From NCBI RefSeq assembly GCF_026210795.1, contig NC_089456.1, positions 1,366,501 through 1,430,500 on the forward strand: a stretch of 64,000 nt of DNA. Direction: 5' to 3'. Under the pieces are notes generated by a model. The model was given only the letters and a program-made list of their open reading frames with translations. It ran no database searches and had not been told where the DNA came from. Below, piece by piece: positions 8,736-61,891 of this stretch. The DNA is from Rhizophagus irregularis (lineage: Eukaryota; Glomeromycota; Glomeromycetes; Glomerales; Glomeraceae). Every line of letters begins with the position of its first letter. The stretch's first letter is position 1. The position numbers were made by a program, and so were the translations under genes.

Positions 8736-10285
8736 CTACAAATAAATCATTACTTTATTAATAATAGAAAAAAATACTATACCATTAGATAGTGATGAAC
8801 TTGCAACTCCTAATTCACATAATTGAGAATCTATAATATTATTTAATAATTAATAATTTTTTTAGAAAAAAAAAAAATAAACGAAAATGGTAATATTTAA
8901 GTTAATTATTACTAACCTCCATTTTCTTCTTCATCAAGATATGAAGTAATTACAGATGAATTGACAGGTTTTGGTAAGTTACTAAATGAAAACGCTCTAC
9001 TGGCATATATAGCATCAGGATTAGCTTTATATGAAGTTACAATATTTGCTATTTCTTTATCAGCTTCTTCAAATATAGCTTTTATATCTTTTCCTCCATA
9101 TTCCCTTTTTTCTACTTTATACCCTCTAATTGCACCATACCAAAGCTTTAATGTATCATGTAGTTCATTAGATGTTGGTCTTTCACCTGGGTTAGCATTC
9201 ATGCATTTATAAGATAATTTCTTGTAAATATCAGGGGTTCCCTTTCCAAATTCAGGTCTATGACCATTACATATTTCTAATGCCAAATTAAAATCATGTT
9301 TTCTATTATGAAAAGGTGGTTTCCCAGACGACAACTCAGCCATAATTACACCAAAACTATAAATATCAGATGATGAAGTATATGGCTTTTCATCCAAGAC
9401 TTCTGGAGCAATATATGGCAATACTCCATATATTTTATAATTTGATTTTTGTTCACTCGCTGGTCCGGATAATCCAAAATCTGTGATATAAGAATCTGTT
9501 ATTCCAAATTTTGTATTTTGTAATAAATTTCCACTATGAAAGTCTTTATGAAAATAGCCTAGCTTATGTGCATTTTGGAGATTATATATTAAATCATATA
9601 AACATTTAATTTTGTCTTTCCATAAAATATTTTTAAAATTTTTTGAAAGAACATTTCCCAAAGCTCCCTTATTTGCAAACTGTAAAATCATCATAAAATC
9701 ATTGGTTTCTGGATCCTTAGTCATCCCATAAAAATTTAAAGTATAAGGACTTTTTAAGTAAAGTTCCCAATGTATTTTGAGCTATTGATATAAAAAATTT
9801 AATTAGATTAATAATATATATATATACTGTATATATGTATAAATGATAAAATATTTATATAATTACAAAAATATACAGTACCTCATTAAGATATTTAGCC
9901 GACATATTCTGTGATTCATTTAGCTTTTTCAAAGCGACTTTTATAGGTTCAGATTCTAATTTTTCCCAACTTCCATCATCCTGTTTTTTATAAGATGGCT
10001 TACCATCTGTCCATATTGCAGAATATACTTTAGCAAATCCACCTTCACCAATTTGTTTCATGTTTGTAAATCTATCAAAAGATACCCATTCGAGAAATGT
10101 AGGATTTTTATTTTTATTTCTTGCATTATAAATTGTATCTTTTATAAACCTATCAATATCATGGTTACCACTGGTCCATCCTTCTAGTATGCAAAAAGGA
10201 TCACATTTTTTACACCATAATTCTTTATTAAGTGATTTATTACAATAAGAACACCCTTTGTAATTAATATTATAAAATTTAGTAT
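8736..10285 (-). CDS. Kinase unit A (last of four tandem units; catalytically complete)
   Basis: Proposed exons: 9882-10285, 8917-9781 and 8736-8830 (introns of 100 and 86 bp, GT-AG). The first exon carries the cysteine module (CSYC..WCKKC), GW(T)SGNHDIDRFI and the N-lobe: glycine loop IGEGGFAKVY and VALKKL. Exon 2 carries HKDFHSGN (catalytic Asp), ITDFGLSG, YIAPEVL and SFGVIMAELSSG. All key TKL kinase residues are present, so an active Ser/Thr-type kinase is predicted. The last exon, joined at GGAG|GTTAGT in phase 1, adds about 31 codons; without that splice the frame stops at 8912. The unit begins at a phase-1 acceptor, not at an ATG, and the frame is continuous with unit B upstream, so it probably is the 3' part of one multi-kinase gene. 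Confidence 0.75.
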
Positions 10286-10336
10286 CTATTTTCGTTACAG
10301 AAAAATATAAATAAATAAAAATAAATAAATACATAC

Positions 10337-10897
10337 TCTTATATGCCATAATCAACATTAATTCATTAGTTTTTAGATCTCTAGTTATCCCATAAAATCT
10401 TAAGGAGTCTGGCTTATGATTCCAATCTACCTTTATCTATTATATTATAATTTAATCAATAAATAAAACAACGTAATTTAAAGATAATATATTAAAAAAA
10501 TATACCTTCTTTAAATAGTCCGCTATCATATTTTGTGATCCTTTTAACTTTGTCAATGCAACTTCTATGGATTCAGGTTCTAATTTTTCACAATTTCCAT
10601 CATGATATTTTTTATAAGACGAATGACCATCAATCCATGTAGCAATATATTCATCGTTAGATGAGTCAATTTGTTTTATATCTGTTAATCTATTAAATGG
10701 TACCCATTCAAGAAATAAAGAATTTTCATTTTTATTTATTGCGTTATAAATTGCATCTATTATGAGCTTATCAATATCACGATTTCCGCTGGTCCAACCT
10801 TCTAGCATGGGATAAAGATCACATTTTTCACACCATAATTCTTCATTAATATAAGGTTCATTGCAATAAATACACACTCCATAATTAGTATTGTAAT
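10337..10897 (-). CDS. Kinase unit B: truncated, degenerate N-lobe fused to unit A
   Basis: Exons 10506-10897 and 10337-10436, intron 69 bp. It has the cysteine module (CIYC..WCEKC) and WTSGNRDIDKLI, but the glycine loop is lost (IDSSNDEYIATW) and the VALK lysine is replaced (VALTKL). The second exon starts IKVDWNHKPDSL and breaks off at the kinase hinge (ELMLIMAYK), where other units continue into the C-lobe. The next sequence is a 51-bp stretch with GTATGT and TAG ends, then the cysteine module of unit A. Because 51 is divisible by three and contains no stop, the B-A fusion stays in frame whether or not that intron is removed. Unit B cannot be a kinase; it can only be an N-terminal extension or a dead repeat. 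Confidence 0.65.
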
Positions 10898-10974
10898 CTT
10901 TTTTTAAATGAAGTATTGATTAGTAGAAATATAGTATTATAGAAGAAATCAAAATAAATATAAAAAATAATTAC

Positions 10975-12291
10975 CCATATCGTTTATATTTTCTTTAAGA
11001 TAATGTGAAATAATAGTAGGTGAATTAACAGGATTTGGTAAATTATTGAATGTAAATTCCCTACTGATATATGTAGCATCAGGATTCTTTTCATGAGTAG
11101 TTGAAATATTCGGAATTTTTTTATTAAACATATTTTGAATCTTTTCTTCTTTGCAACTTAAAATTATATCATTATGAAGAACATCATTCCAAAGATTTAA
11201 ATACCGATATAATTCTTCAGCTGTTGGTCTTTCATTTGAATTAGCATTCATACACTTATGAGCTAATTTCTTATAAATATAAGGGGTTCCTTTTCCAAAT
11301 TCTGGTCTAAGACCATCACATATATTTGATGCTAAATCTAAATCATGATTCCTGTCATGAAAAGGTGGATTACCAGATGATAATTCAGCCATAATAACGC
11401 CAAAACTATAAATGTCAGATGATGATGTGTATGATTTTCCATTTAAAACTTCTGGTGCAATATATGGTAATACTCCATATATTTTGTCATCCGATTTTTG
11501 TTCATTTGCTGGTCCGATTAATCCAAAATCTGCAATGTAAGTATCATAAATATCGGTTATTCCAACTGAAGTGTTAGTATCACAAGTATCAGTTGTTCCA
11601 AGTAATATATTTCCACTATGAAAGTTTTTATGAAAATGACCTTTTTTATGTGCATTTTGAAGGTTATGTATTAAATTATGTAAGTATTTGATTTTATATT
11701 TCCATAAAATATTATCAAAATTATTTGAGAGAGTATTTCTCAAATTTCCCTTATCTGCAAATTGTAAAATCATCATAAATTCTTTAGTTTCTGGATCCCT
11801 AGTCATTCCATAAAATTTTAAGAAGTTAGGATCACTTGAAAGTTTCCAATATGTTTTAATCTACATATTATTTTAATAAAAATAATTAATAAATAAAATA
11901 ATACAATGCTAATATAATAAAAATACACTACCTTATTAAAGTAATTAGTTGACATATTTTCTGATCCATTTAATTTCTTTAAAGCAACTTTATAATTTGG
12001 TCTTTTAACAGCCGATTTGTACCATATTGCATTATACACTACCGAAAATCCACCGGTATCGATTTGCGTTTTATCTATTAATTTACCAAATGGTACCCAT
12101 TCAAGAAGTATAGGATCTTTCATTTTCATTTCTTGCATTATAAATTGTATCTTTTATGAAATTGTCCAAATCATGATTTCCGCTGGTCCAACCTTCTATC
12201 AATTTATAAGGATCACACTCTTCGCACCATAATTCTTTATCAATAAATGGCTTATTGCAGTAAGAGCACTCTCCATAATCAGTATAGGAAT
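10975..12291 (-). pseudogene. Kinase unit C: frameshifted, HRD-Asp changed to Asn
   Basis: Exons 11932-12291 and 10975-11860, intron 71 bp. The cysteine module (CSYC..WCEEC) and WTSGNHDLDNFI lie in one frame, while the N-lobe (PILLEWVPFGKL, IDTGGFSVVY, VALKKL) lies in another: there is one extra base in an A-rich run near 12118-12121. The catalytic loop reads HKNFHSGN, with Asn where the family has Asp; the DFG (ADFGLIG) and APE motifs are intact. The first glycine of the loop is also lost. So even without the frameshift this unit would be a pseudokinase. Its 5' boundary is a phase-1 acceptor (AAAAG) 77 bp downstream of a donor at the end of unit D. A base-call error in the run cannot be excluded. 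Confidence 0.65.
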
Positions 12292-12368
12292 CTTTTCAAA
12301 ATGAAGTATTAATTAGTTATTTAGTATTTTAAGGGAAGTCTAAATAAATAAAAAAAAAACACAATTAC

Positions 12369-13711
12369 TTTCATCATTTATATTCTCTTCAAGATAATAT
12401 GAAATAATAATAGGAGAATTAATAGGTTCTGGTAGAAACTTGTTAAATATAAATTTTCTACTAATATATATAGCATCAGGATTCTTTTTATAAAAGGTTG
12501 AAATATTTGGGATTTTTTTATTAAACATATTTTGAATTTTTTTTTCTTGAATTTTTTCTTTATAAAGAATATTATTCCAAAAATTCAAAACACAATATAA
12601 TTCTTCAGCTTTTGGTCTTTCATTTGAATTAGCATTCATACATTTATGAGCTAATTTCTTATAAATATAAGGGGTTTCACTTCCAAAATTTGGTCTAAGT
12701 CCATTACATATTTTTAACGCTAAACTATAATCATGTTTTCTGTTATGAAAAGGTGGATAACCAGATGATAACTCGACCATAATAACGCCAAAACTATATA
12801 TATCAGAAGATGATGTGTATGGTTTCCCAATTAAAACTTCTGGAGCAATATATGGTAATACTCCACATATTTTATTATCTGATTCATTTGCTGATCCGAA
12901 TAATCCAAAATCTGAAATGTGATATAAATAATTATTTCGTAAGATATTTCCACTATGAAAATTTTGATGAACCTGTCCTGATCTATGTGCATCTTGAAGG
13001 TCAGATATTAAATCAAGTAATAATTGGATTTTATCTTTCCATAAAATATAATTAAATTTATTTAAAAGAACATTTCTCAAATTTCCCTTATTTACGAACT
13101 GTAAAATCATCATAAATTCTCCAGTTTCCGGATCTTTAGTCATTCCATAAAATTTTAAAACACTAGGATTGTCTGAATAAAGATTCCAGTGTACTTTAAT
13201 CTATTATTAAATAAGGTAATTAATAAATGATAAAAATATAAAACCGTAAATTCATGATAACTGAACTTCTGAACGTGCTAGTAATGAAAATATACTCTAC
13301 CTTATTTAAATAATCAGTTGTCATATTTTGGGATCCATTTAGTTTTTTCAAAGCAACTTTAATAGGTTCAGATTCTAACTTTATCCAACTTTCATCATTT
13401 CGTTTTTTATAAGATGATTTACCATCCATCCATATTGCAGAGTACACTTTGGAAAATCCACCTTCACCAATTTGATTAATATTTGTAAATTTATCAAAAG
13501 ATACCCATTCAAGAAATGGACTAGAATCAACATGTCGTACATTATAAATTGTAGCTTTTATAAACATGTCAATATCGGGATTTCCGCTAGACCATCCCTC
13601 AATAATACAACGAGGGTCACATTCTTTACACCAGAATTCATTAGTAAATGGTTTATTACAATAAGAACAAATTTTATCTATAATTTTATTGTTAGATATT
13701 GACAAGTACAT
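12369..13711 (-). CDS. Kinase unit D: first tandem unit, probable pseudokinase
   Basis: Exons 13301-13711 and 12369-13200, intron 100 bp (GTAGAG..ATAG). Order of parts: cysteine module (CSYC..WCKEC), WSSGNPDIDMFI, glycine loop IGEGGFSKVY, VALKKL, then HQNFHSGNIL (Asn instead of the catalytic Asp), ISDFGLFG, YIAPEVL. ATP binding looks intact but phosphotransfer is doubtful. The start is uncertain: an ATG at 13711 opens the frame, but CTAAC..TTATAG just upstream of 13677 looks like an intron end in phase 1, so the true first exon may lie further upstream. At the 3' end a donor (GAAA|GTAATT) at 12368 precedes the stop at 12340 and joins unit C in phase 1. Confidence 0.65.
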
Positions 13712-14570
13712 TTTCTTGAATAATATTTAATAATATATTGATAAGAATAAATAAATAAATAAGTATAATTTTGTGATCGTTAAGAAAAAATAAAATATTT
13801 AAATAATAAACGTTTCACGTTACGTAAAAATAATAAAATATGAATATAAGATATTTAAGAAAAAAACAGTAATCTTGTATAATATTTTAATATTCGTATA
13901 TTTTGTTTTTTTTACACGCCTAATTATTAATATATATATACTGTATATTACCATTCTTTCTATTCAGAATTGTGTCGATCAAAATTCATCATTATGATTC
14001 ACTGTAAGAATTTACTTTGACACATGTGAAAGTCTGTGAAACAATGTGTATAATATACTCCATTTTTGAGAATTTTAATTAATTAATTTTTTATATATCT
14101 TCTAATTATTTTATCATTTAGGTGAAAAATATGGTTAGTGTTCTGCATAAATTGATTCATAATACGGTGTAACTCTAATTGATCCCAAAGAGTAAAAATA
14201 TTTTAGTGGTATGCCACGCTTTAATATAATTTTTTAAGTTACGATCTTCTTTGACATAAACAATACTAAATGTCAATTTTCATTTGATCATACTCGGCTG
14301 ATTTTATCAATTTAAAAAAGTAAAGTTTTTTTTTTCCCGAGTGGTCACGTGATTAATTTATATAATCTTATTGGCTGATTTTTATGACGTGAGGTAATTA
14401 TCGTAAAATCGTTAGCGTAAAATAGTAATTTATTGATTAGAAAAAAATGACTGATTCGTGTAATTCGTTAATACGTTTATTTAATTATAAACTAAAGAAA
14501 AAAAAAATCTGTTCTATCTATATTCTAGAGTGTAATAATCATCACTATATAGATTGCTTTCATCAGGGTA
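13712..14570. other. Intergenic stretch between kinase array and F-box/LRR gene
   Basis: AT-rich; includes a GGTCACGTGATT box at about 14344 and the presumed promoter or first exon of the multi-kinase gene near 13.7-14.0 kb. A possible tiny first exon (ATG at about 13953 with a GTATAT donor in phase 1) is speculative. Confidence 0.35.
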
Positions 14571-26274: not shown

Positions 26275-29200
26275 TTAAATATGAAATTTCCTATTTATTG
26301 GAATAACTGCCATATACTTTTTCGGATTTCTTTGCCCTACTTCAAAAGTTCCTGAAACAAATCTACATAAAATATTATGTATAGGAATGATACAATCTCT
26401 TCCCATCTCATAAAATTTATCACTCCATAATTCAATATTACATGAATTAGCATCATCATCAATTTTAAAATAAAATCTTGTTTTACGATTTTCGGCTGGC
26501 TTATACCATCTCACAAAAGCTAAATAATGCGTTCTGGGGCCCTCTTGCAAGTAAACAGTGTGTTCAAAAAAAAATTGAACCTGGCCGGGAAATGTTTCAA
26601 TAGTATCATCATTCAGAATAAACTGTGCCAAAATTTTTGCTGATTTGGCATGTCGATAGGACAATACTGAACCAAATATCTCCGTTCCGATTTTTAATCT
26701 GCTAAACTGGTTGACTTTTGGAAGAACAGGAATAGAATGTTCTGGAGCATTATGAATGTGCGACAATGCAACAAAATCTTTTTCATAAACATTACAATAA
26801 AATTCTGTTAATAATAAATAAATATCTTGCGTAAGCAATACATCTTTTTTTGATGGACCTAAAAAGGAGCCTGGAAATATTTCAAAACCGAAAGCTGCGC
26901 CTTCTTCAATTGTAGTTGATAACAAGCGAAATGCTTTATAATCTTCGTCAGTATATTCATCATACATTGAAAGGCTTCCGACCGAATCTCTAGGTTTTAA
27001 TATTATAAGAACTTCCTGAAGGTGAGGATTTTGGTCGGCATGGGATGTTAATTCATCTAAAAGAGCATTATGTTGAATAATTTTCATAAGCTCAATTTCG
27101 ATCTTCCTATGACTGTTGTGAAACGATCCTAAAAATAAATTTGTGTTATAAAAAATAAAGGGGTGTGAAAATTGATCATTTTTATTCTATAATTTACCCA
27201 CCCAATAAGCCATTCATACGCTCCGTTGAGAAACACCAAAAAGCGTACAAGGGTCCATAGTCCAAAGAGCATTCACATAGATGCAAGCACAAGTGCAGGT
27301 TTGGTGTTATTTTTTTAGGCCCGTATTCTCTCTCTATATCCTTTACCATTTCTACCAAACGTGTATGAGCTTCTTTAAGACCACTTATTGATACTATTCT
27401 ACACACTAAAATACTACACACACGCACGAAGTTTACCAAAATTCTCTGGTCTGCTTCGTTTAAAAGATCCCAAGTAATAGGTATGGCAAATATTAACATG
27501 AATGTTTTCCACTGATCGGCAGAAAAGCCAGAAAAGCCTTCGCCTGTTGATATTTTACTTGGAATCCTACCAATGTCTACTGGCACCTGGATATTGCTGG
27601 CCCTCTTTTGCATAAGTGAGAGATTTTGTGGCGTTAACTTTCCTTTTTCAATCCAAAGTCTCGTCACGATCCATTTTGCAATTCCAAGGAAAAGACAGTG
27701 CATAGGATCTATGACTAAAAATCGTATAGGATTAAAGTAGGGTAGGCGATACATTTCAGACCATCGTACCAATGTTACTGATACATAGTTCCGTCGTTGT
27801 TCTTCTGTTTTACACTGTTTCCATGCAAAAGTATTGTTCTTAATTTCTTCAACATCTCTTTCTACAAACCAGTTATTCATATCATCAAGTCCTCCAAAAT
27901 TCGGCTGATTCCTGTCATCGTAATTGGCATGTTTGAGATACCTATAACATGCAATTCTTGCAGATATATGTCCACAAAGCTTTCTTGCGGCAGGTATGTC
28001 ACAAGAACAACATATCACAGCGGCCTTAATTGTTTTTCCGTCGGAATGTTCAAAAGTTTCTGATAGATCAATACCATACCATAATTCAATTAACTGGTCG
28101 ACCAGAGGAGCAAGGTAGTGGTTTAGGCGATGTAATGATGGTTCATTTGGTTCTGGGATTAATGCCAACGTTAATATATTAGATGGTTTAAATCGTTTAT
28201 TCCTGGGTAAGTTGCAAATGATAGCATAAATTGCTCCGGTGCTATATTGGGAATTTTCAAACGGTTGAAACCAATCTATGTTAAGCATTATTCCAAGATT
28301 GGTATCTGCTAAGTCTTGCTGAAAGAAGGTTGACCCATTTTCGTCTTTAAAAGATTTCCATATCCTTCCATCATATATATCGGCAAGAATTTCTGGATCA
28401 GAGGGACGGTTAACCCACTTTCTGCAAGCTTCTTCAAAGCCTTTTCGCTTGAACAAAAGATATAATTGATGTTTCAAGCTAATTGTGGGAAATATCAATG
28501 CTGGTTTTTTGATTATACCGTTCTTCGTAGGGACAAGTTTATATAAAGGATTTCCGCAGATCTCTCTTTTATTACTCATTGGGTGGTTAGGAAACTCTTG
28601 GAACACACAATCTGTGAATTTAGGCGTAATATCAGGACTGTTACTAGACACATCGGCAATTCTATACAATTTGCAACACTTTTCGCAAGCCGCATATTTT
28701 GTTAGATGCGCGCAAATACCAAGATTCTTGTGTGCCATATAGAGAGATGTAGGAAACGTCAAAAATAAGTTTTTGTTTATATTCATGAGAACATAGCGGA
28801 AAAACTTAAAAAGAGAATTCGTAGCCACATTAGGTAGACGAAATCTCTCTTGGTACTTCAAGATCCATATAATGATCCAAGAAAAGGTGTCATCTAATCC
28901 TTCTTTCGGGTACTTAAGATCATCTTCTAATTCCAATTCTGGAGCGTCAAAATTCAATTCAGAATCATCTGATGAATATCCTAAAGTATCATCATCAGAG
29001 TTTTGTTCGTTTTCCTCTTCAGATACATTATCACCATCGTTGTCATCACCACCATCATCATTATCATCTCCTTCATCATCATCAGAGAATAGTTCATTAG
29101 TTACTTCTGGAACCGAAATCGTAGATTTTATGTTTTTTTGAAATACTGGTAACATTTTTCTAACTAAGAATTGATAGTTTTCTTGTGGATCGTCATCATC

Positions 29201-29437
29201 ATTTGTTTCCATAAATTCTCCCAAAGGAGGTATTGGATCAATAGGTTGATTTTTTGATTCAGAATTTCTAATAGCTTCTCTTTGAGGTACGATCCTATCT
29301 TTTTTAGCATAATGACTTTTTTTGGTTCTAGGATCTACCAGTTTTCCTTTACAACTTGGACAATAACATTGTACAAATTTTCGCGTTCTAGGAGGACGAA
29401 CATATGAAGGAGTATTTTTATTATTGATATAAGACAT
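26275..29437 (-). CDS. Tnp2/DUF4218-type DNA transposase
   Basis: Two exons, 27202-29437 and 26275-27128 (73-bp intron), 1029 residues. The donor is GTGGGT (phase 1), because only this gives NGLLG|SFHNSHRKIEIELM, the usual continuation in the family. N-terminus: a CYCPSCKGKLV zinc motif and an acidic Asp/Glu stretch (about residues 75-150). Middle: Tnp2-like core with LNIDWFQPF, FLVIDPMHCLFLGIAKWIV and AVICCSCDIPAARKLCGH. C-terminus: DUF4218-like NLHLCLHLCECSLDYGPLYA and GQVQFFFEH, CNIELW. Such proteins move CACTA/Plavaka-type elements. The frame is intact, so it may be functional. A second gene is divergent at 29633. Element ends not identified. Confidence 0.8.
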
Positions 29438-29632
29438 TATTTAATTGAAATTTTATTACTGAATAGATAATTTTGATATAATAACAAACATACGAAAGAT
29501 CATAAGTAATAATTGATTTAATCGTTTGTGTATTATCTAATCCAACCAAAAAGCTTAATTTTAGTATATAAATAGTCTACGGATTATCCTAATTGTATTG
29601 TAATTCTTTCTCTCACGCAGTCACTCCTTATC
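29438..29632. promoter_or_regulatory. Divergent promoter region of the transposon genes
   Basis: Only 195 bp separate the start codons of the transposase (minus) and of the partner gene (plus). TATATAAATAG at about 29566 is a TATA-like box for the plus-strand gene. Confidence 0.4.
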
Positions 29633-31517
29633 ATGAGAAATTCTAGATACAGGTAATATTTGTTTGTTTAATTAAAAAAAAAAAATATCGATTTTATTTT
29701 CATTTAATTTAAAAAAAATATCGATTTTATTTTCATTTAATTTAAAAAAATATCAATTTTACTTTCATTTAATTAAAAAAAATTATCGATTTACATTTTT
29801 ACTTTTTTTTTTTATTTATCAGTATGCAAAATTCCGGAGAAGAATTTATCAGGGAAAGTCCGTTTCAATGAAGAGGAAGGACGATATACAACAGAAAAGA
29901 GCCATTGTACAGCGGGGGTAGCTCGCATGAAAAAGAAAAGTTGGTACATGAGAGAGGCAGAAGCCGAACTCCGCGTAATCCTCCTTCATTAGAAGAACGC
30001 TACAATAGGGAACGAGAAAGGGAAAGAGACGTGAGTGGAGAACGCTACAATAGGGAACGAGAAAGAGAAAGAGACGTGAGTGGAGAACGCTACAATAGGG
30101 AACGAGAAAGAGAAAGAGACGTGAGTGGAGGTTATGGAAGGGAGAAAAGGCGCAAAAGGAATGAGAGTAGAGAAATTCGAAATCAAGAAGGTAATTTATT
30201 ATAAAAAAGAAATTGTGTATGAATGAATTTTATAATGAAAAAATTTGAAAATAATTAACATTAATTTTATTTAAATCAGAAATTACAGAGTTACGTTCAA
30301 TTGTGATGGAATTGACAGACAAAATCGAAGAACTTCACAGGAATAGAAGTCGAACAAGAATACCTTCTGCATCACCTGATACTTCAGCAAGTATCAAAAA
30401 AGCTCGGAATAATTTAGAACCTATGAATAAAGATTACAAAAAAGTTTTCCGGGTCAGTATTTGTATTATTGCGCTCAAGTTGTGTAGTTTTTTAAGTAAT
30501 TTACTTAACTTACTTCTCTTCTATCTATAATAGGATGATGTTGTCAACATATTAAAAAGCTTGGATGCCTCTTTACAGTTAGACTATAAGAATCGGTGGA
30601 CTGACATCGAGATATATGTGGTTCAAAATGTAATTCCGGCTATAAAGAAAGTGCTTGGCGAAAGATTTCACTACACTGACACGGGATTGAAGAAAGTTCT
30701 TCAGAATTATCATCGTCACCAAAGAGACACCTACATTTTGTCATTGAATCCTCAGAAACAAAAAGCAAACAGACAAAGAACGGGTATAAACAGTAGAAGG
30801 AAAGATGTAAGTACAACTTTACTTTAGGTTTGAAATAGGATGATGGCGCTCTTTATTGAATATCATCATCAAGTTAGTAAGATATAAGACGTCTCAAATT
30901 TGCAGAATATCTATTTAACATTTTATGTATTTATATTATTTTTGTTGCAAAGAAAAAGGAAAGACGTCAAAGAGGATTGAAGCGTATGATAGATACCAAA
31001 GATCAAATGCTCACGGATTTAGAATTTAGCAATTTGATCAAGGATTTAAGAGAAATCATTAATGATTCAAATTACCATTTGGACGAAGTTTCGGAAACAG
31101 ACGAAGAAGAAGGTTTGTGTTTTCTGCGTATAATAGTTGCTACTATCATTGAAATACTAACACTTTACGATATCATTTTTTCCTTTCACATAAGCTCAAG
31201 AAGAGAAAAACATGAAGATTCGTCCATCTAGGAACGAAAATACGAATCACGTTCTTCATGTATACGATAAGAAGTGAAGATCGCAAAGGGTGAGATATAT
31301 GCTGAATTATTACATTGTATTTTTTTTCAATTACTTACATAATTAAACTTTTTAGTTGCGGATTCTCTTGCAACACGCTGATGAAGTAGGTGAAGCCACT
31401 CAGAACTTAAAAATAGTAAGGAAACGATGGTACGACGATCAAATGTACATAGATAATTCCAAGCCACCTCGTAATGCTCCGGAATGGGCTATTTCATCTT
31501 CCTACCAGTCCGAATAA
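29633..31517 (+). pseudogene. Arg/Glu-rich partner gene of the transposon, two in-frame stops
   Basis: Seven exons fit in phase: 29633-29652, 29823-30190, 30280-30452, 30534-30806, 30953-31112, 31195-31289, 31356-31517. The frame has two TGA stops, at 29869-29871 and 31275-31277; the second stands where related proteins have Trp (VYDKK-stop-RSQRLRILLQ). The product is highly charged: RERERERD repeats, a coiled-coil-like ITELRSIVMELTDKIEELH, then VLGERFHYTDTGLKKVLQN and HRHQRDTYILSLNP, ending PRNAPEWAISSS. I know this second part from Glomeromycota hypothetical proteins near transposons. The divergent pairing recalls tnpD/tnpA of CACTA elements; that role is inference. It is probably dead. Confidence 0.6.
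29995..30129 (+). repeat. Three tandem 45-bp coding repeats
   Basis: Copies at 29995-30039, 30040-30084 and 30085-30129, almost identical, each encoding ERYNRERERERDVSG. The repeat length is a multiple of three, so copy-number change keeps the frame. Confidence 0.9.
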
Positions 31518-36038: not shown

Positions 36039-37866
36039 TTAATTTTCATCTGTTTTAATATATAAATAATTAAATAAATAAAGTTAATTAATTTACAAAA
36101 TTAATTTTTTTATATATCATAGCACATACCTAATGACTCCAAATCTTTAATTATATAATCATTCAAATCTTCACTTGCTAGCATTTCATTCGCTTTTACA
36201 CTAGCTTGTGAACCTTCACTTTCAAGAATTTTATTTGACTTTTTACTGGTATTTTCATCTAAATAATTAAATAAATAAATTAATTTACATAAATAATTTT
36301 GCAAGATTAATTTTTTATATATTATAGGAGTTTACTAGTAAAAGCTCGATATTCGATAAACCGGATCACGTGATCATTAACCAATAAAATTTAAGTAACG
36401 TGATGCAGTAAATCTTAATTTTGGCCAGAATTATAAAAATCTTAATTCCGGCCGAAGTTATAAATTACTTATATATTCAATTAAAAATATTTTATATTCA
36501 TTTTCAACTTAAAACTAAGATGAAAAATTAAAATATAGTGTATATTAATTTTATTAGCATGAATTCTTTAAAAAAATCCAGTATAATAGATTTCCAATAT
36601 ATCGAAATTTTTTCGCTATACTGGATATCCCGATAAACCTGATAAACCGGATATTTTTAGTGGAACCGATAGATCCGGTTTATCAAATTTTACTGTGTAC
36701 ATACCTAATGACCTTGAATCTCTAATTACACAATCATATGCTTGTGAATCTTCACTTTCAAGAATTTCATTCAATTTTTTACTAGTAAAATCAAGTAAGC
36801 GACTTGTATAACATGCTTTAGGATGAGATTTTGTAGCTAGATTGTTATGCCCAATTGGTGCATTTATAAATTCCATAATATTGCATTTTAATTCTTCATT
36901 AAATTCTTCAATTTCCTCACCAAAAGGAGGAAAAATCCATTTTCTAATAATATTTAATACTTCTTTAGAAGATGGTCTTTCTGATGGATCTTCATTCCAA
37001 CATTTTTCATTAAATCCACATAACATTGTGGAGTATTTTCAACAATTTCAGGACGTTCACCTTTACAAATACTTAAACTAAGTTGAATATCATGTGCTCT
37101 ATTATTAAATGGTGGTATTCCAGATGTAAGTTCCCACATAATCATAGAAAAACTATATATATCACTAGCTGGGGTATAAGATTTGCCTCTTAAAACTTCA
37201 GGAGCAATAAATGTTATGACACCATAAATATCATACTTTTTCAAAAATGATTTTACAGGTTGACATAATCCTAAATCACTAATAAAAATTTTATCATTAT
37301 TATCATCATTATGATTTAAAATATTGCCATCATGAAAATCACAATGAATAAGGTCTTTTTCATGTATCATACTAAGTCCAGAAATAATTTTGTACAACAT
37401 AAATAATTTTTGATCCCATTTCTTTTCAACTATTCTTGTTAAATTTTCTCTTAAATTACCTTTATTTGCATAATCCATTACTACCATATATTTTGAAGTA
37501 TTTGGATCTTCTGTAAATCCATAAAAATCTATAACATCACTCGAACTTAAAACACTTTTATGATATTCCCACTATAAAAAAAATAATAATTTATCAATAT
37601 AAATAAATCTTATTTTAAATTAAAAATAGAAAATAATATATTATCATACTTCTTTTAAAAATTCATTTAAATTTTCATTCAAATTTTTATGGCATTTAAG
37701 AATTACTTCTTTCCTTATATTATTCTTTAACCAAGTAGCTTTATATATAGTACCAAATCCTCCTTCATTAAGATATGCAACGTTGTTAAATTTGTTATAA
37801 GGAATCCATCTTAATCTATTTTTAAAAATAAAATCATCCATAATTGCATTTTCACTTTTTCCAAAT
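36039..37866 (-). CDS. Protein kinase gene, 3' exons; one frameshift in the C-lobe
   Basis: Exons 37650-37866, 36705-37571, 36130-36258 and 36039-36049. The first (phase 2 at its 5' end) reads FGKSENAIMDDFI, RWIPYNKF and NEGGFGTIYKATW (glycine loop). The second has IHCDFHDGN (catalytic Asp), SDLGLC (DLG variant of DFG), FIAPEVL, SFSMIMWELTSG. At 37003-37007 a run of five A (minus strand) where six would keep the frame breaks the sequence just before CWNEDPSERPS. This is a pseudogene or a homopolymer error. Two tail exons end alike (..SLG|GTATGT), and the last is only four codons with stop (36039-36041). The 446-bp intron holds a transposon. The 5' part is described under the array. Confidence 0.7.
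36336..36695. mobile_element. Transposon (360 bp) inside the kinase intron
   Basis: Ends TAGTAAAAGCTCGATATTCG and (complement) CAGTAAAATTTGATAAACCG; both lead into GATAAACCGGAT. The shape CAGTAAAA..CGATA resembles pogo/Tigger-type Tc1-mariner ends, which duplicate TA; the TA flanks are not clear here. Inside are GATCACGTGATC (36364) and the GGCC module pair (about 36421-36455). It explains why this intron is far longer than its neighbours. Confidence 0.55.
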
Positions 37867-40800
37867 CTATAAATTTAAATAGTTAAAATTATATTATAGC
37901 TTATATTATAATTATACTAAATAAATTATTACTTACTCTAAAATTTAAATAAAAATTTAACATAATATAAATCTTAGTTTTTGGATAAATATATATAATA
38001 ACTTATAATTTACAACTTACCAACTAAATTAACAGATATGTTTTAAATGAATTCAGTTAACAAATAAATATTATATAAAATAAATAATAATAGAAATATA
38101 AATATCTTACAAGCTATATCATAAATAATTTATAAAGAAATTAGTTAGTTTAAATTATATATAAATATTATATAAATAAGTAATAATAGAATTAGATAAA
38201 TAACTTACACCCTATAATATTTAATAATTTTTTAAATAAAGAAATTAGTTAGTTTAAATTATATGTGAATATTATATAAATAAGTAATAATAGAATTAAA
38301 TAAATAACTTACTCTCTATATTATTTAATAATTTTTTTAAATAAAGAAATTAATTAGTTTAAATTATATGTAAATATTATATAAATAAGTAATAATAGAA
38401 CTAAATAAATAACTTACCCTCTATATTATTTAATAGTTTTTAAATAAAGAAATTTGTTAGTTTAAATTATATGTAAATATTATATAAACAAGTAATGATA
38501 GAATTAAATAAATAACTTACCCCCTATATTATTTAATAATTTTTTAAATAAAGAAATTAGTTAGTTTAAATTATATGTAAATATTATATAAATAAATTAA
38601 TAATAGAATTAAATAAATAACTTATAACTTACAATCTATTAAATAAAGAAATTAGTTTATGGTTTAAATTATATGTAAATATTATATAAATAAGTAATAA
38701 TAGTATTAAATAAATAACTTACTCTCTATATTATTTAATAATAATTTTTTAAATAAAGAAATTAGTTAGTTTAAATTATATGTAAATATTATATAAATAA
38801 GATTAAATAAATAACTTATAACTTACCATCTATTAAATAAAAAAATTAGTTAGTTTAAATTATATGTAAATATTATATAAATAAGTAATAATAATAATAG
38901 AATTAAATAAATAACTTACACCCTATATTATTTAAATAAAGAAATTAGTTAGTTTAAATTATATGTAAATATTATATAAATAAGTAATAAAAGAATTAAA
39001 TAAATTAAATAAATAACTTACACCCTATATTATTTAATAATTTTTAAATTATAGGTAAATATTATATAAATAAGTAATAATAGAATTAAATAAATAACTT
39101 ATAACTTACGATCTATTAAATAAAGAAATTATTTAGTTTAAATTATATGTAAATATTATATAAAATAGATAATAATAGAAATATAAATATCTTACAAGCT
39201 ATATCATAAATAATTTATAAAGAAATTAGTTAGTTTAAATTATAGGTAAATATTATATAAATAAGTAATAATAGAATTAAATAAATAACTTACTTTCTAT
39301 ATTATTTAATGATAATTTTTTATATAAAGATATTAGTTAGTTTAAACTATATGTAAATATTATATAAATAAGTAATAATAGAATTAAATAACTAACTTAT
39401 AACTTACCATCTATTAAATAAAGAAATTAGTTAGTTTAAATTATAGGTAAATATTATATAAATAAGTAATAAAAGAATTAAATAAATAACTTACCCCCTA
39501 TATTATTTAATAATTTTTTAAATGAAGAAATTAGTTAGTTCAAATTATATGTAAATATTATATAAATAAGTAATAATAGAATTAAATAAATAACTTATGA
39601 CTTACCAACTAAAATAAATTACAAAGTAATTTTAAATAAAGAAATTATTTAGTTTAAATTATATGTAAATATTATATAAATAAGTAATAATAGAATTAAA
39701 TAAATAACTTATAACTTACGACCTATTAAATAAAGAAATTAGTTAGTTTAAATTATATGTAAATATTATATAAATAAGTAATAATAGAATTAAATAACTA
39801 ACTTATAACTTACAATCTATTAAATAAAGAAATTAGTTAGTTTAGATTATATGTAAATATTATATAAATAAGTAATAATAGAATTAAATAAATAACTTAT
39901 AACTTACAATCTATTAAATAAAGAAATTAGTTAGTTTAAATTGTATGTAAATATTATATAAATAAGTAATAATAGAATTAAATAAATCACTTATAACTTA
40001 CCAACTAAAATAAATTACAAAATAATTTTTTAAATAAAGAAATTAAAATTAAATAAATATTTATAACTTACAATCTATTAAATAAAGAAATTAGTTAATT
40101 TAAATTATATGTAAATATTATATAAATAAGTAATAATAGAATTAAATAAATACTTACTCACTATATTAATTAGTTTTAAATAAAGAAATTAATTAGTTTA
40201 AATTATATGTAAATATTATATAAATAAGTAATAATAGGATTAAATAAATAACTTACACCCTATAATATTTAATAATTTTTTAAATAAAGAAATTAGTTAG
40301 TTTAAATTACACGTAAATATTATATAAATAAGTAATAATAGGATTAAATAAATAACTTATAACTTACAATCTATTAAATAAAGAAATTAGTTAGTTTAAA
40401 TTATATATAAATATTTTATAAATAAGTAATAATAGAATTAATTAAATAACTTATGGCTTACCAACTAAAATAAATTACAAAATAATTTTTTAAATAAAGA
40501 AGTTCATTAGTTTAAATTATATGTGAATATTATATAAATAAGTAATAATAGAATTAAATAAATAACTTACTCTCTATATTATTTAATAATTTTTAAATAA
40601 AGAAATTAGTTTAAATTATATGTGAATATTATATAAATAAGTAATAATAGAATTAAATAAATAACTTATGGCTTACCAACTAAAATAAATTACAAAATAA
40701 TTTTTTAAATAAAGAAGTTCATTAGTTTAAATTATATGTAAATATTATAACAATAAGTAATAATAGAATTAAATAAATAACTTACACCCTTAATTTTTTA

Positions 40801-42845
40801 AATAAAGAAATTAGATAGTTTAAATTATATGTAAATATTTTAACCATATAAAGTAATAATAGAATTAAATAAACAACTTATAACTTACGATCTATTAAAT
40901 AAAAAAATTAGATAGTTTAAATTATATGTAAATATTATAACAATAAGTAATAATAGTATTAAATAAATAACTTACCCCCTATATTATTTAATAATTTTTT
41001 AAATAAAGAAATTAGTTAGTTTAAATTATATGTAAATATTATATAAATAAGTAATAATAGAATTAAATAAATAACTTATAACTTACGATCTATTAAATAA
41101 AGAAATTAATTAGTTTAAATTATATGTAAATATTATATAAATAAGTAATAATAGAATTAAATAAATAACTTACCCCCTATATTATTTAATAATTTTTTAA
41201 ATAAAGAAATTAGTTAGTTTAGATTATATGTAAATATTATATAAATAAGTAATAATAGAATTAAATAAATAACTTATAACTTACAATCTATTAAATAAAG
41301 TAATTAGTTAGTTTAAATTATATGTAAATATTATATAAATAAGTAATAATAGAATTAAATAAATAACTTACCTCCTATAATATTTAATAATTTTTTAAAT
41401 AAAGAAATTAGTTAGTTTAAATTATATGTAAATATTATATAAATAAGTAATAATAGAATTAAATAATTAACTTACTCTCTACATTATTTAATAATTTTTT
41501 AAATAAAGAAATTAGTTAGTTTAAATTATATGTAAATATTATATAAATAAGTAATGATAGAATTAAATAAATAACTTATAACTTACTACCTATTAAATAA
41601 AGAAATTGGTTAGTTTAAATTATATGTAAATATTATAAATAAGTAATAATAGAATTAAATAATTAACTTACTCTCTACATTATTTAATAATTTTTTAAAT
41701 AAAGAAATTAGTTAGTTTAAATTATATGTAAATATTATATAAATAAGTACTAATAGAATTAAATAAATAATTTATGACTTACCAACTAAAATAAATTACA
41801 AAGTAATTTTTAAATAAAGAAATTAGTTAGTTTAAATTATATGTAAATATTATATAAATAAGTAATAATAGGATTAAATAAATAACTTATAACTTACGAT
41901 CTATTAAATAAAGAAATTAATTAGTTTAAATTATATGTGAATATTATATAAATAAGTAATAATAAATAACTTATGGCTTACCAACTAAAATAAATTACAA
42001 AATAATTTTTTAAATAAAGAAGTTAAATTATATGTAAATATTATATAAATAAGTAATAATAGAATTAAATAATTAACTTACTCTCTATATTATTTAATAA
42101 TTTTTTAAATAAAGAAATTAGTTAGTTTAAATTATATGTAAATATTATATAATAAGTAATAATAGAATTAAATAATTAACTTACTCTCTATATTATTTAA
42201 TAATTTTTTAAATAAAGAAATTAGTTAGTTTAAATTATATGTAAATATTATATAAATAAGTAATAATAGGATTAAATAAATAATTTACTCCCTATATTAT
42301 TTAATAATTTTTTAAATAAAGAAATTAATTAGTTTAAATTATATGAATAATATAAATATAAATACCATATAACTTACACCCTATAGTATTATTAATTATT
42401 AATTAGTTTGATATAAATATAATATAAAAGTATTTACTGCAAGTTATACTATATATTACTTACAATCTAGTTATTTAAATTAAGAATATAATTAGTTGAA
42501 TTATATAAAATATCAAACAAATAAATATAATATATATACTGTAATTTACCATCTGTAGTATAATTAATTATTAAATAGTTATTTAAATAAAGAGTTTAGT
42601 TATTTGAATGTAAAATAAATAAAGCAAAGAATTGAAGATTAAATAACTGATAACTTTACCAACTAGTATAGTATTATTAACTATTAAATAAATTATTTAG
42701 TTATATGGTATACAATAAAATAATGAGTAATTCATTATATTAACTTACTAGCTAAAAATTTAACATCAAAATATAAGGTATAATTATTGATAGTATTCGA
42801 ATTGTTTATAAATAAAAATTTAATATTTCAGCTTGTTTGATATAC
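37867..42845 (-). repeat. Tandem array of about 50 intron-like units with 3-base spacers between acceptor and donor
   Basis: About 50 units of roughly 75-120 bp. On the minus strand each reads GTAAGTTAT.. (or GTAAGTCAT, GTAAAT), then AATTTAAACTAACTAATTTC (CTAAC branch-like core), then an AT stretch and TAG. Between each TAG and the next GTAAGT there are exactly three bases (49 cases; one acceptor is AAG, one CAG) and once a single base (37939). Triplets include GGG, GGT, AGA, ATT, ATC, ATG, TTG, GTA, GAG, CTA, TGA. Three subtypes exist: TTG units with CCAACTAAAATAAATTACAA, AT-N units with TCTATTAAATAAAG, and GGN/AGA units with CTATATTATTTAATAATT on the plus strand. Either a micro-exon chain or a satellite derived from an intron; see findings. 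Confidence 0.9.
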
Positions 42846-42971
42846 CTTTAGATTCCTTGGTACCACTTACTTCAAATTCCTCAATGCTACTCCTTTCAAA
42901 TTCTTCAATGCCACTCCCCTCAAATACTCTAGCACCACTTTCTTCAAATCCTTCAATATTATTACTTGAAA
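42846..42971 (-). CDS. Coding exon upstream of the array (Glu/Phe-rich repeats)
   Basis: 126 bases between AACTAG and GTATAT, phase 1 at both ends. It encodes SSNNIEGFEESGARVFEGSG and then two more IEEFE units: imperfect 24-27-base repeats. An internal GTAAGT after the last IEEFE could be an alternative donor. Style and composition resemble the kinase tail exon at 36130-36258 (LESEGSQAS, MLASEDLN), so the exon belongs to the same kind of gene. Its position on the same strand, directly before the array and in the same phase, makes it the likely 5' neighbour of the micro-exon chain. Confidence 0.55.
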
Positions 42972-43082: not shown

Positions 43083-43109
43083 CTTCAGGTTTCTTGGTAT
43101 TACACAAAA
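43083..43109 (-). CDS. 27-base coding exon
   Basis: Bounded by AAAACTAG and GTAAAT, phase 1 in and out, encoding LCNTKKPE plus split codons. Its 3' half (ATACCAAGAAACCTGAAG) matches the end of the next exon (GTACCAAGGAATCTAAAG), so the two arose by exon duplication. Confidence 0.45.
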
Positions 43110-43191: not shown

Positions 43192-43257
43192 CTTTGCCAA
43201 TACATTGGCCCATTACTATATTAAAATTTTCTCTAATTGGAAAAGATAAAGTAATAT
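43192..43257 (-). CDS. Upstream coding exon of the array-containing gene
   Basis: 66 bases from a possible AAAAAAAG acceptor to GGCAAAG|GTAAAGC, phase 1 at both ends, reading ITLSFPIRENFNIVMGQCIG. Only an open frame, phase agreement and a plausible donor support it; the true 5' end of the gene is not found. Confidence 0.35.
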
Positions 43258-61082: not shown

Positions 61083-61891
61083 TAGGGATTGGAACCGTCA
61101 AAAAAAAGCTTAACCGGTTAATAACCGGTTAATTAGAGCGTCTAACCGGTTAATAGTCGGTTAATTAATCGGTTAATTAACCGGTTAATTTGTAATGAGG
61201 CTAACCGGTTAATAACCGGTTAATATATAAATTTTATATTTTAACGTGTGTTTAGAGTCCTATTTTTTGTATTTTAACGCGCGTTTAAAGATAAATTTTT
61301 GTGTTTTTAACTAAATAGTATTATTTAAGAGTAATTTCTGGTAAATATTTATATTAAAATGTATACATTAGTAAAAAATTACATACAGTATATTGTAATT
61401 ACTTACTACCCAGTCATGCAGTGGTCACCGGTATCAGCATTAAGTTGAAAAGTTTTTTAATTATATTTTTAGTTCTATCCGAAATTCCATTCCAATTCTG
61501 ATGGCCACTGTAGTATTCAAATTTTTGCATTTTTTCTTATTTAAAATACTATACCCGATCATATGCTGATTTCTGCATAAATCAAGGTTATAACTTTAGA
61601 ATATTTTAACATAAATAATGTTAAATTATAAATATCATATACAATATATTATATTAAAATATAAGATTGCAGGTTTATCATCGAATCTATTAGGGTGGGC
61701 AAAATTAAAGTTAATGCTAGTAAAGTTAAAGTTAGAAGTTGGCTAGGAATTACTAATTTAGGATGATCTGTATTTTAACCGGTTAAGTTAGCCGGTTAAT
61801 TAGTCGGTTAATTTAACCGGTTAAATTAACCGGCTAACCGTTTTTTGAGAGGTCTTAACCGGTTAACCGCCTTAACCGGTTCCAATCCCTA
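61083..61891. mobile_element. hAT-like element (809 bp), TAGGGATTGGAACCG family
   Basis: Ends TAGGGATTGGAACCGTC and (complement) TAGGGATTGGAACCGGTTAA; identical 8-bp flanks ATTATTTG at 61075-61082 and 61892-61899. Both subterminal regions are packed with TTAACCGGTTAA-type palindromes, probable transposase binding sites. No coding capacity. Confidence 0.9.

Follow-up and report, generated by a model that had tools for sequence, protein, structure and literature searches.

A putative chain of single-codon micro-exons carried by tandem near-identical introns in a protein kinase gene of Rhizophagus irregularis

A kinase gene interrupted by a tandem array of introns

A window of 64,000 nucleotides from the arbuscular mycorrhizal fungus Rhizophagus irregularis (C28:1366501-1430500 of the 146.7-Mb, 32-contig assembly that was searched) contains on its minus strand a protein kinase gene that is interrupted by an array of repeated intron-like units. 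The array spans 4,979 bp (42845-37867) between the end of an upstream coding exon at 42846 and the start of a protein-kinase exon at 37866. Judged from its sequence, this array is very probably a coding chain of single-codon micro-exons carried by tandem near-identical introns. Briefly, each unit would consist of a 3-nt exon preceded by a complete spliceosomal intron of about 70-115 nt (GTAAGT ... CTAA[C/T] ... TAG). With every intron removed by ordinary intron definition, exon 3 would be linked to 49 triplets in their genomic order and these to a 1-nt exon, which would bring the joined chain in frame with the kinase. In the predicted protein kinase a short acidic N-terminus is followed by about 50 variable residues and then by the kinase domain.

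The spacing between acceptor and donor is the most conspicuous property of the array. Scanning the minus strand from 43100 to 37700 for the pattern [ACT]AG-NNN-GTAAG[ACT]/GTAAA[TG] yielded 49 junctions, all 49 with a spacing of exactly three bases, as compared to one site each at spacings of 0, 1 and 2 and zero sites at spacings of 4-7. The acceptor is TAG in 47 of the 49 junctions, CAG at 42552 and AAG at 40788. The initial annotation of this DNA, which had reported about 50 units separated by exactly three bases and TAG acceptors with one AAG and one CAG as exceptions, is thus borne out in both points. The array also shows tandem repetition at higher-order periods of 104, 198 and 302 bp.

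All exons of the gene lie on the minus strand. The gene starts at 43213 with exon 1 (43192..43213, 22 nt), which encodes MGQCIGK plus one base and is followed by a GTAAAG donor. Exon 2 (43083..43109, 27 nt, VLCNTKKPE) is in phase 1 on both sides and has a homologous stretch in the public models P0001 and P0121, and exon 3 (42846..42971, 126 nt, VSSNN...TKESK) ends with one base of the next codon, that is in phase 1, in front of a GTATAT donor at 42845. The introns with the 49 putative 3-nt micro-exons then occupy 37938..42845, the first triplet being located at 42751-42749 and the last at 38023-38021. After the 49th triplet stands a unit that had escaped the initial annotation, TTTTAG-A-GTAAGT, with a single base (37937..37937), the predicted 1-nt micro-exon that puts the chain in the kinase frame. 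The last intron before the kinase (37867..37936, 70 nt) leads to the first kinase exon (37650..37866, FGKSENAI...FLKE), related proteins of which, P0001 and P0002, match Pfam kinase models, and to the second kinase exon (36954..37571), which matches Pkinase (PF00069) with an E-value of 8.8e-29 and in which the frame is lost near 37000 relative to P0002. The N-terminal part encoded by exons 1-3 is common to the public models P0001, P0121 and P0019. The record P0121, also from R. irregularis, fuses a MULE-like stretch to exons 1-3 and ends in the first intron of the array.

Arrays of the same kind across the genome

A single array unit matches 504 places in the genome. Twenty stretches of 10 kb were fetched around places among the about 150 matches listed, all chosen for matching the array unit, and one further stretch was fetched at the locus of P0001. 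Merging two adjacent pairs and adding both the window and the P0001 locus gave a final set of 20 arrays with 786 triplets, 14 to 73 recognised triplets per array. All 20 fetched stretches hold arrays, as expected from their selection. Within these stretches 671 junctions have a spacing of 3 and 17 a spacing of 1, and any other spacing from 0 to 15 occurs at most four times, an excess of spacing 3 over all others that is more than chance would produce. Identical array units are found on different chromosomes.

The borders of the arrays recur as well. A peptide like that of exon 3 matches 35 genomic places, and the phase-1 end of exon 3 could be read in 12 of the 20 arrays. Near the array start ATT GGT is found in 19 of 20 arrays; the five leading triplets were read in 12 of these, and 11 of the 12 fit CT[T/C/A] T[T/C][G/A] A[T/C][G/A] ATT GGT. 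At the other end 17 of 20 arrays have the 1-nt exon; of the remaining three, L035 is cut off ahead of its tail and L034 and L050 are not resolved. The kinase exon behind it was matched by pattern in 9 of these 17, and the other 8 show ..TAG|ATTTGG in the printed sequence. The sequence context of the 1-nt exon occurs at 56 genomic places with at most two mismatches, as compared to 0 for a reversed-pattern control. Longer stretches between recognised units break up two arrays (3,210 bp in L040+41 and 627 bp in L031) and are perhaps insertions inside array introns.

Stop codons are avoided only between neighbouring triplets

How would 49 triplets and a single base be read? One base of a codon is left over at the end of exon 3, and the kinase exon starts at the third codon base. 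The frame of the kinase is reached through the triplets and the 1-nt exon together, whereas the triplets alone are out of frame, as is direct joining of the flanking exons, which was rejected on this ground. In the window the reading is open from the ATG through the chain into the kinase, and the chain reads AIDDWWKKIDLESKRDWDRDRFEIDWLNFDYCLGDETYRWYENWEERSFE. In this frame each codon takes its first base from the end of one triplet and its other two from the start of the next. The proposal of one codon per exon made in the initial annotation is strongly supported by frame and stop counts, with the correction that each codon straddles two neighbouring micro-exons and that the kinase frame requires the final 1-base exon.

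None of the 723 joins between neighbouring triplets in the 20 arrays creates a stop codon in the frame set by exon 3, whereas shuffling the triplets within arrays generates 28.7 stops on average (standard deviation 4.0, minimum 17 in 2000 shuffles). Readings of the joined triplets in the other two frames were rejected, with 3 stops (phase 0) and 99 stops (phase 2) versus 0 in phase 1. The end of the chain conforms to the same frame. In the 16 arrays scored, the triplet that closes the chain ahead of the 1-nt A is TTG in 9, TCG in 5, TCA in 1 and TTA in 1, always ending in G or A; T at this place, which was never seen, would give TAA, and the change between T and C in the middle of the triplet is silent in the proposed frame (TTT or TTC, both Phe).

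Block duplication and composition were considered as causes of the stop deficit but find no support in the controls. When the order of the triplets is reversed, 32 of 723 joins contain a stop. Joins that skip units contain a stop in 24 of 660 cases at lag 2, in 35 of 606 at lag 3 and in 2.9-6.7% of cases over lags 2-15. Since such non-neighbour joins do show stops, the deficit is unlikely to originate from block duplication or composition. Moreover, when each distinct ordered pair is counted only once per array, 0 of 546 pairs give a stop, compared to a shuffle mean of 24.3 and a minimum of 14 in 1000 shuffles. The deficit also persists when the window is left out (0 of 707), when only strict TAG/GTAAGT sites are considered (0 of 582) and when three arrays with a broken frame are left out (0 of 602; shuffle mean 21.3, minimum 10). 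With a wider set of donors (821 sites) 0 of 756 neighbour joins give a stop, and AA, AG or GA follow a triplet ending in T in 0 of 199 cases but other triplets in 135 of 557. A few members of this wider set, such as two sites downstream of the L039 array, do not belong to any array, and the set of 723 joins is regarded as primary. The triplets that are barred from meeting lie about 100 bp apart across an intron, and thus only spliced mRNA exposes their joins to selection. Furthermore, as the avoidance of stops is limited to neighbour joins, the isoform under selection would be the one that includes all triplets in order. Codon-position bias was set aside as a test of selection, since C-to-T changes at CpG sites to which the donor G contributes might act as a confounder.

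Introns outlasted by their splice sites

In the wider set the intervals between successive sites have a median of 100 nt and range from 67 to 132 nt (756 introns). A branch-like motif CTAA[CT] is found in 85% of these introns as compared to 27% after shuffling, in agreement with the CTAAC-like branch text reported in the initial annotation. The donor is GTAAGT at 738 and the acceptor TAG at 788 of the 821 sites. In their GT donor consensus, branch-like motif, AG acceptor and usual fungal length the units have the features of U2-type spliceosomal introns. In 12,168 pairs of units from the same array the nine splice-site bases differ at 4.1% of positions while the 80-nt flanks differ at 55%, so that the earlier impression of splice-site words kept despite drifting units holds quantitatively. 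Retention of an intron would spare the reading frame a stop in only 4 of the 756 cases; the other 752 introns carry an in-frame stop, so that nearly all would have to be removed. Sequential removal by intron definition would be the simplest mechanism; acceptor and donor 3 nt apart could hardly be bound at once.

Triplets that change faster than their surroundings

The three bases between the introns behave in the opposite manner to the splice sites. In 338 within-array pairs of units with identical 80-nt flanks, triplet sites differ at 27.2%, whereas 26 three-base windows inside the introns, treated alike as a control, differ at 1.7% on average and at 4.9% at most. In one case 54 units in 10 arrays share identical 80 flanking bases yet carry 13 different triplets. 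Some intron endings nearly always pair with one class of triplets (ATT/ATC, TTG/CTG or ATG), and one common intron ending carries most of the remaining triplets. Either the triplets are driven to differ, or the introns are homogenised by conversion with selection keeping the triplets, or mutation is aimed at the triplets. Duplication and exchange of units would lengthen and reshuffle the segment codon by codon, the triplets diverging and the introns remaining near-identical.

The predicted protein

P0001, P0002 and the second kinase exon in the window match PF00069 and PF07714 above cut-off, and the best protein matches of the window gene are kinases of Rhizophagus irregularis. The MGQC at the start of the protein resembles an N-myristoylation signal. 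The predicted chain peptides differ between paralogues, being rich in D, W and E in the window, in Glu and Lys in L037+38 and in Gln and Phe in L035, and the variable chain may serve as a recognition or docking segment. An intron-free processed copy of the chain was not found in the same genome with the window and parts of nine other arrays as queries, an empty answer that in itself shows nothing.

Alternative explanations and points against a coding chain

Could the array serve to generate many proteins instead of one? In combinatorial splicing, as suggested for the schistosome micro-exon genes, varied skipping of units would yield many chain variants per gene. Nearly all junctions are equal in length and phase, so that skipping any number of units keeps the frame, skipping one unit only rarely creates a stop, as the lag 2 count given above indicates, and splice sites so much alike should ease mis-pairing. 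Joins that skip units nevertheless carry stops at the rate of unselected joins (about 4% in shuffles), and it is the complete chain in its genomic order that selection seems to see, even if some skipped forms might be made too; combinatorial use is therefore unlikely to be the explanation. Still further from the data is an inert satellite grown from an intron, with the entire 4,979 bp being a single intron and its inner sites unused. The tandem repetition with its higher-order periods and the occurrence of identical units on different chromosomes are what a satellite would look like, and to this extent the satellite born from an intron that the initial annotation had listed fits the appearance of the DNA. 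An inert satellite would not avoid stops across neighbouring units, though, and it explains neither the absence of stops from all 723 joins and the loss of this effect from lag 2 on, nor why splice sites outlast the drift around them, nor how the gene could be read when joining 42846 directly to 37866 is out of frame, which leaves it scarcely credible. Least probable of all is recursive splicing, in which the sites would be landing points for the stepwise removal of one long intron and the mRNA would keep nothing. Acceptor and donor are close together in every unit, but ratchet sites join AG directly to GT, an arrangement seen at one site in the window as against the 49 with spacing 3. The three intervening bases would stay in the mRNA, where selection against stop codons acts on them, and the recursive-splicing landmarks suggested in the initial annotation are incompatible with such a fixed spacing.

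Several observations weigh against a coding chain of single-codon exons, and one group of them amounts to a further alternative. Public models such as P0001 read the triplets in another frame, namely in phase 0. The GEEGILELVIE in P0001 is the exact phase-0 reading of 11 triplets that follow one another in L051, and P0001 seems to leave the chain via a 5-nt exon, AGTAA, with the donor GTAATA (AGTAA|GTAATA). The same reading is used by P0007, P0024, P0029, P0030 and P0110, with endings such as LSKFGKS, and these five further irregularis models as well as P0015 of R. diaphanus look alike. P0001 was not accepted as transcript evidence, as it takes in intron sequence close to where the chain starts, uses another frame and omits some triplets; the intron sequence and the dropped triplets point to a prediction, and we judge such public models to be wrong-frame predictions. 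A genuine phase-0 reading is very improbable, as it would meet three TGA triplets in the 20 arrays, one of them in the window, takes account neither of the exon 3 phase nor of the better donor, A|GTAAGT, and leaves the phase-1 stop deficit unexplained. Furthermore, the predicted chain peptides, for which parts of 10 of the 20 arrays were queried, have no match at E <= 1 among 5.8 billion proteins (5,458 candidates). Junctions whose length is not a multiple of three occur in 3 of the 20 arrays, with two of 4 nt in L043, two of 2 nt and one of 4 nt in L047 and one of 2 nt in L037+38; these are broken copies or assembly errors. All units are resolved in only 5 of the 20 arrays (the window, L042, L044, L046 and L049); each of the remaining 15 contains 1-4 gaps, some of which conceal units with a GC donor, for example TTG|GCAAGT in L043. 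Only 22 of 67 groups of units with identical flanks contain more than one triplet, so that variability is concentrated in some unit types. Finally, the window copy may not make a full kinase. Its kinase frame breaks near 37000 (36954-37038, minus strand), where the end of one open reading frame overlaps the start of the next, a position through which relatives such as P0002 read intact, and the break is either damage to this copy or an assembly error.

In R. diaphanus, P0015 has an N-terminal low-complexity stretch followed by LSKSGKSENAI and resembles a chain read in phase 0, which suggests that arrays may exist in a second species.

Comparison with known systems

Schistosome micro-exon genes (MEGs) contain chains of small exons of 6-36 bp, in multiples of three, that are thought to vary the protein by splicing (PMC3961193). 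Like them, the R. irregularis array has symmetric exons in tandem whose lengths are multiples of three, as seen at all 49 junctions of the window. It is unlike them in its exons of exactly 3 nt plus one of 1 nt, which fall outside the size range given there, in its tandem near-identical introns inside a kinase gene and in codons that straddle exons. The bicycle genes of aphids have about 17 tiny internal exons on average, more than 100 microexons in megacycle, and fast-evolving products, and their internal exons almost all start at codon position 2 (PMC9168663). The triplets described here likewise begin at the second codon position, given that exon 3 ends in phase 1 and no triplet alters this phase. 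Compared by description, single-codon exons, homogenised tandem introns and the kinase set the array apart from the bicycle genes.

In plants, APC11 and VPS55 contain a 1-nt micro-exon with a strong GTRAGT donor that was missed by annotation, is required for the frame and was proven by RNA-seq and RT-PCR (PMC8831610). This plant exon stands isolated whereas the 1-nt exon predicted here follows 49 exons of 3 nt. Fungal introner-like elements are near-identical spliceosomal introns multiplied in a fungal genome (PMC4457414); unlike them the copies described here, in the stretches around array matches, are arranged head to tail, in one kind of gene and with one variable codon each. Stwintrons consist of two directly adjoining introns and have multiplied in some fungi, the (D1,2) type overlapping by a G so that no exon is left (PMC8469720). 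In the present arrays, three exonic bases always remain between acceptor and donor. A further likeness is found among proteins. The repeats of TAL effectors are near-identical, differ mainly in a variable di-residue at a hypervariable position and are read in order. They are translated as a whole, whereas in the present arrays only the variable triplet of each unit would remain after splicing. No description of a micro-exon chain of this kind was found in the open literature covered by the terms searched. The predicted gene would work like a micro-exon gene, but one-codon exons in a tandem intron array lie outside the accounts of MEGs and bicycle genes cited here.

Neighbouring features in the window

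Elsewhere in the window, tandem open reading frames of another type of protein kinase, with short N-terminal stretches containing Cys pairs, occupy 8912-13726 on the minus strand, 12340-13200 matching Pkinase. A 748-codon open reading frame at 27194-29440 (minus strand) matches Transposase_21 (tnp2, PF02992). At 29994-30130 three near-perfect 45-bp copies are found within a plus-strand open reading frame encoding RERERERDVSGERYN-like repeats, and short tandem arrays with the palindromic unit TAACCGGTTAA lie at 61111-61190 and 61775-61837.

Implications

Standard annotation misses the chain, as no protein matches the 10 queried chains and some public models are in another frame. If the proposed chain of micro-exons is spliced as predicted, the gene would constitute an extreme test for the spliceosome, with about 50 successive introns and only 3-nt and 1-nt exons between them, and the arrays would provide a large natural set of near-identical introns for studies of intron definition, splicing order and fidelity. 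It would also be a gene that evolves one codon at a time via intron duplication and encodes a segment of protein whose divergence outpaces that of the non-coding sequence around it. It could tentatively be imagined that a system for generating diversity uses the introns as its vehicle of copying, each intron carrying one fast-changing codon, in dozens of kinases and with about 50 one-codon splicing events per transcript. Exchange within arrays and between arrays on different chromosomes would homogenise the introns and reshuffle the codons, and the resulting recognition segments would act perhaps in self/non-self distinction between hyphae or in sensing of the partner. The arrays would thereby represent a candidate recognition system in a widespread plant symbiont.

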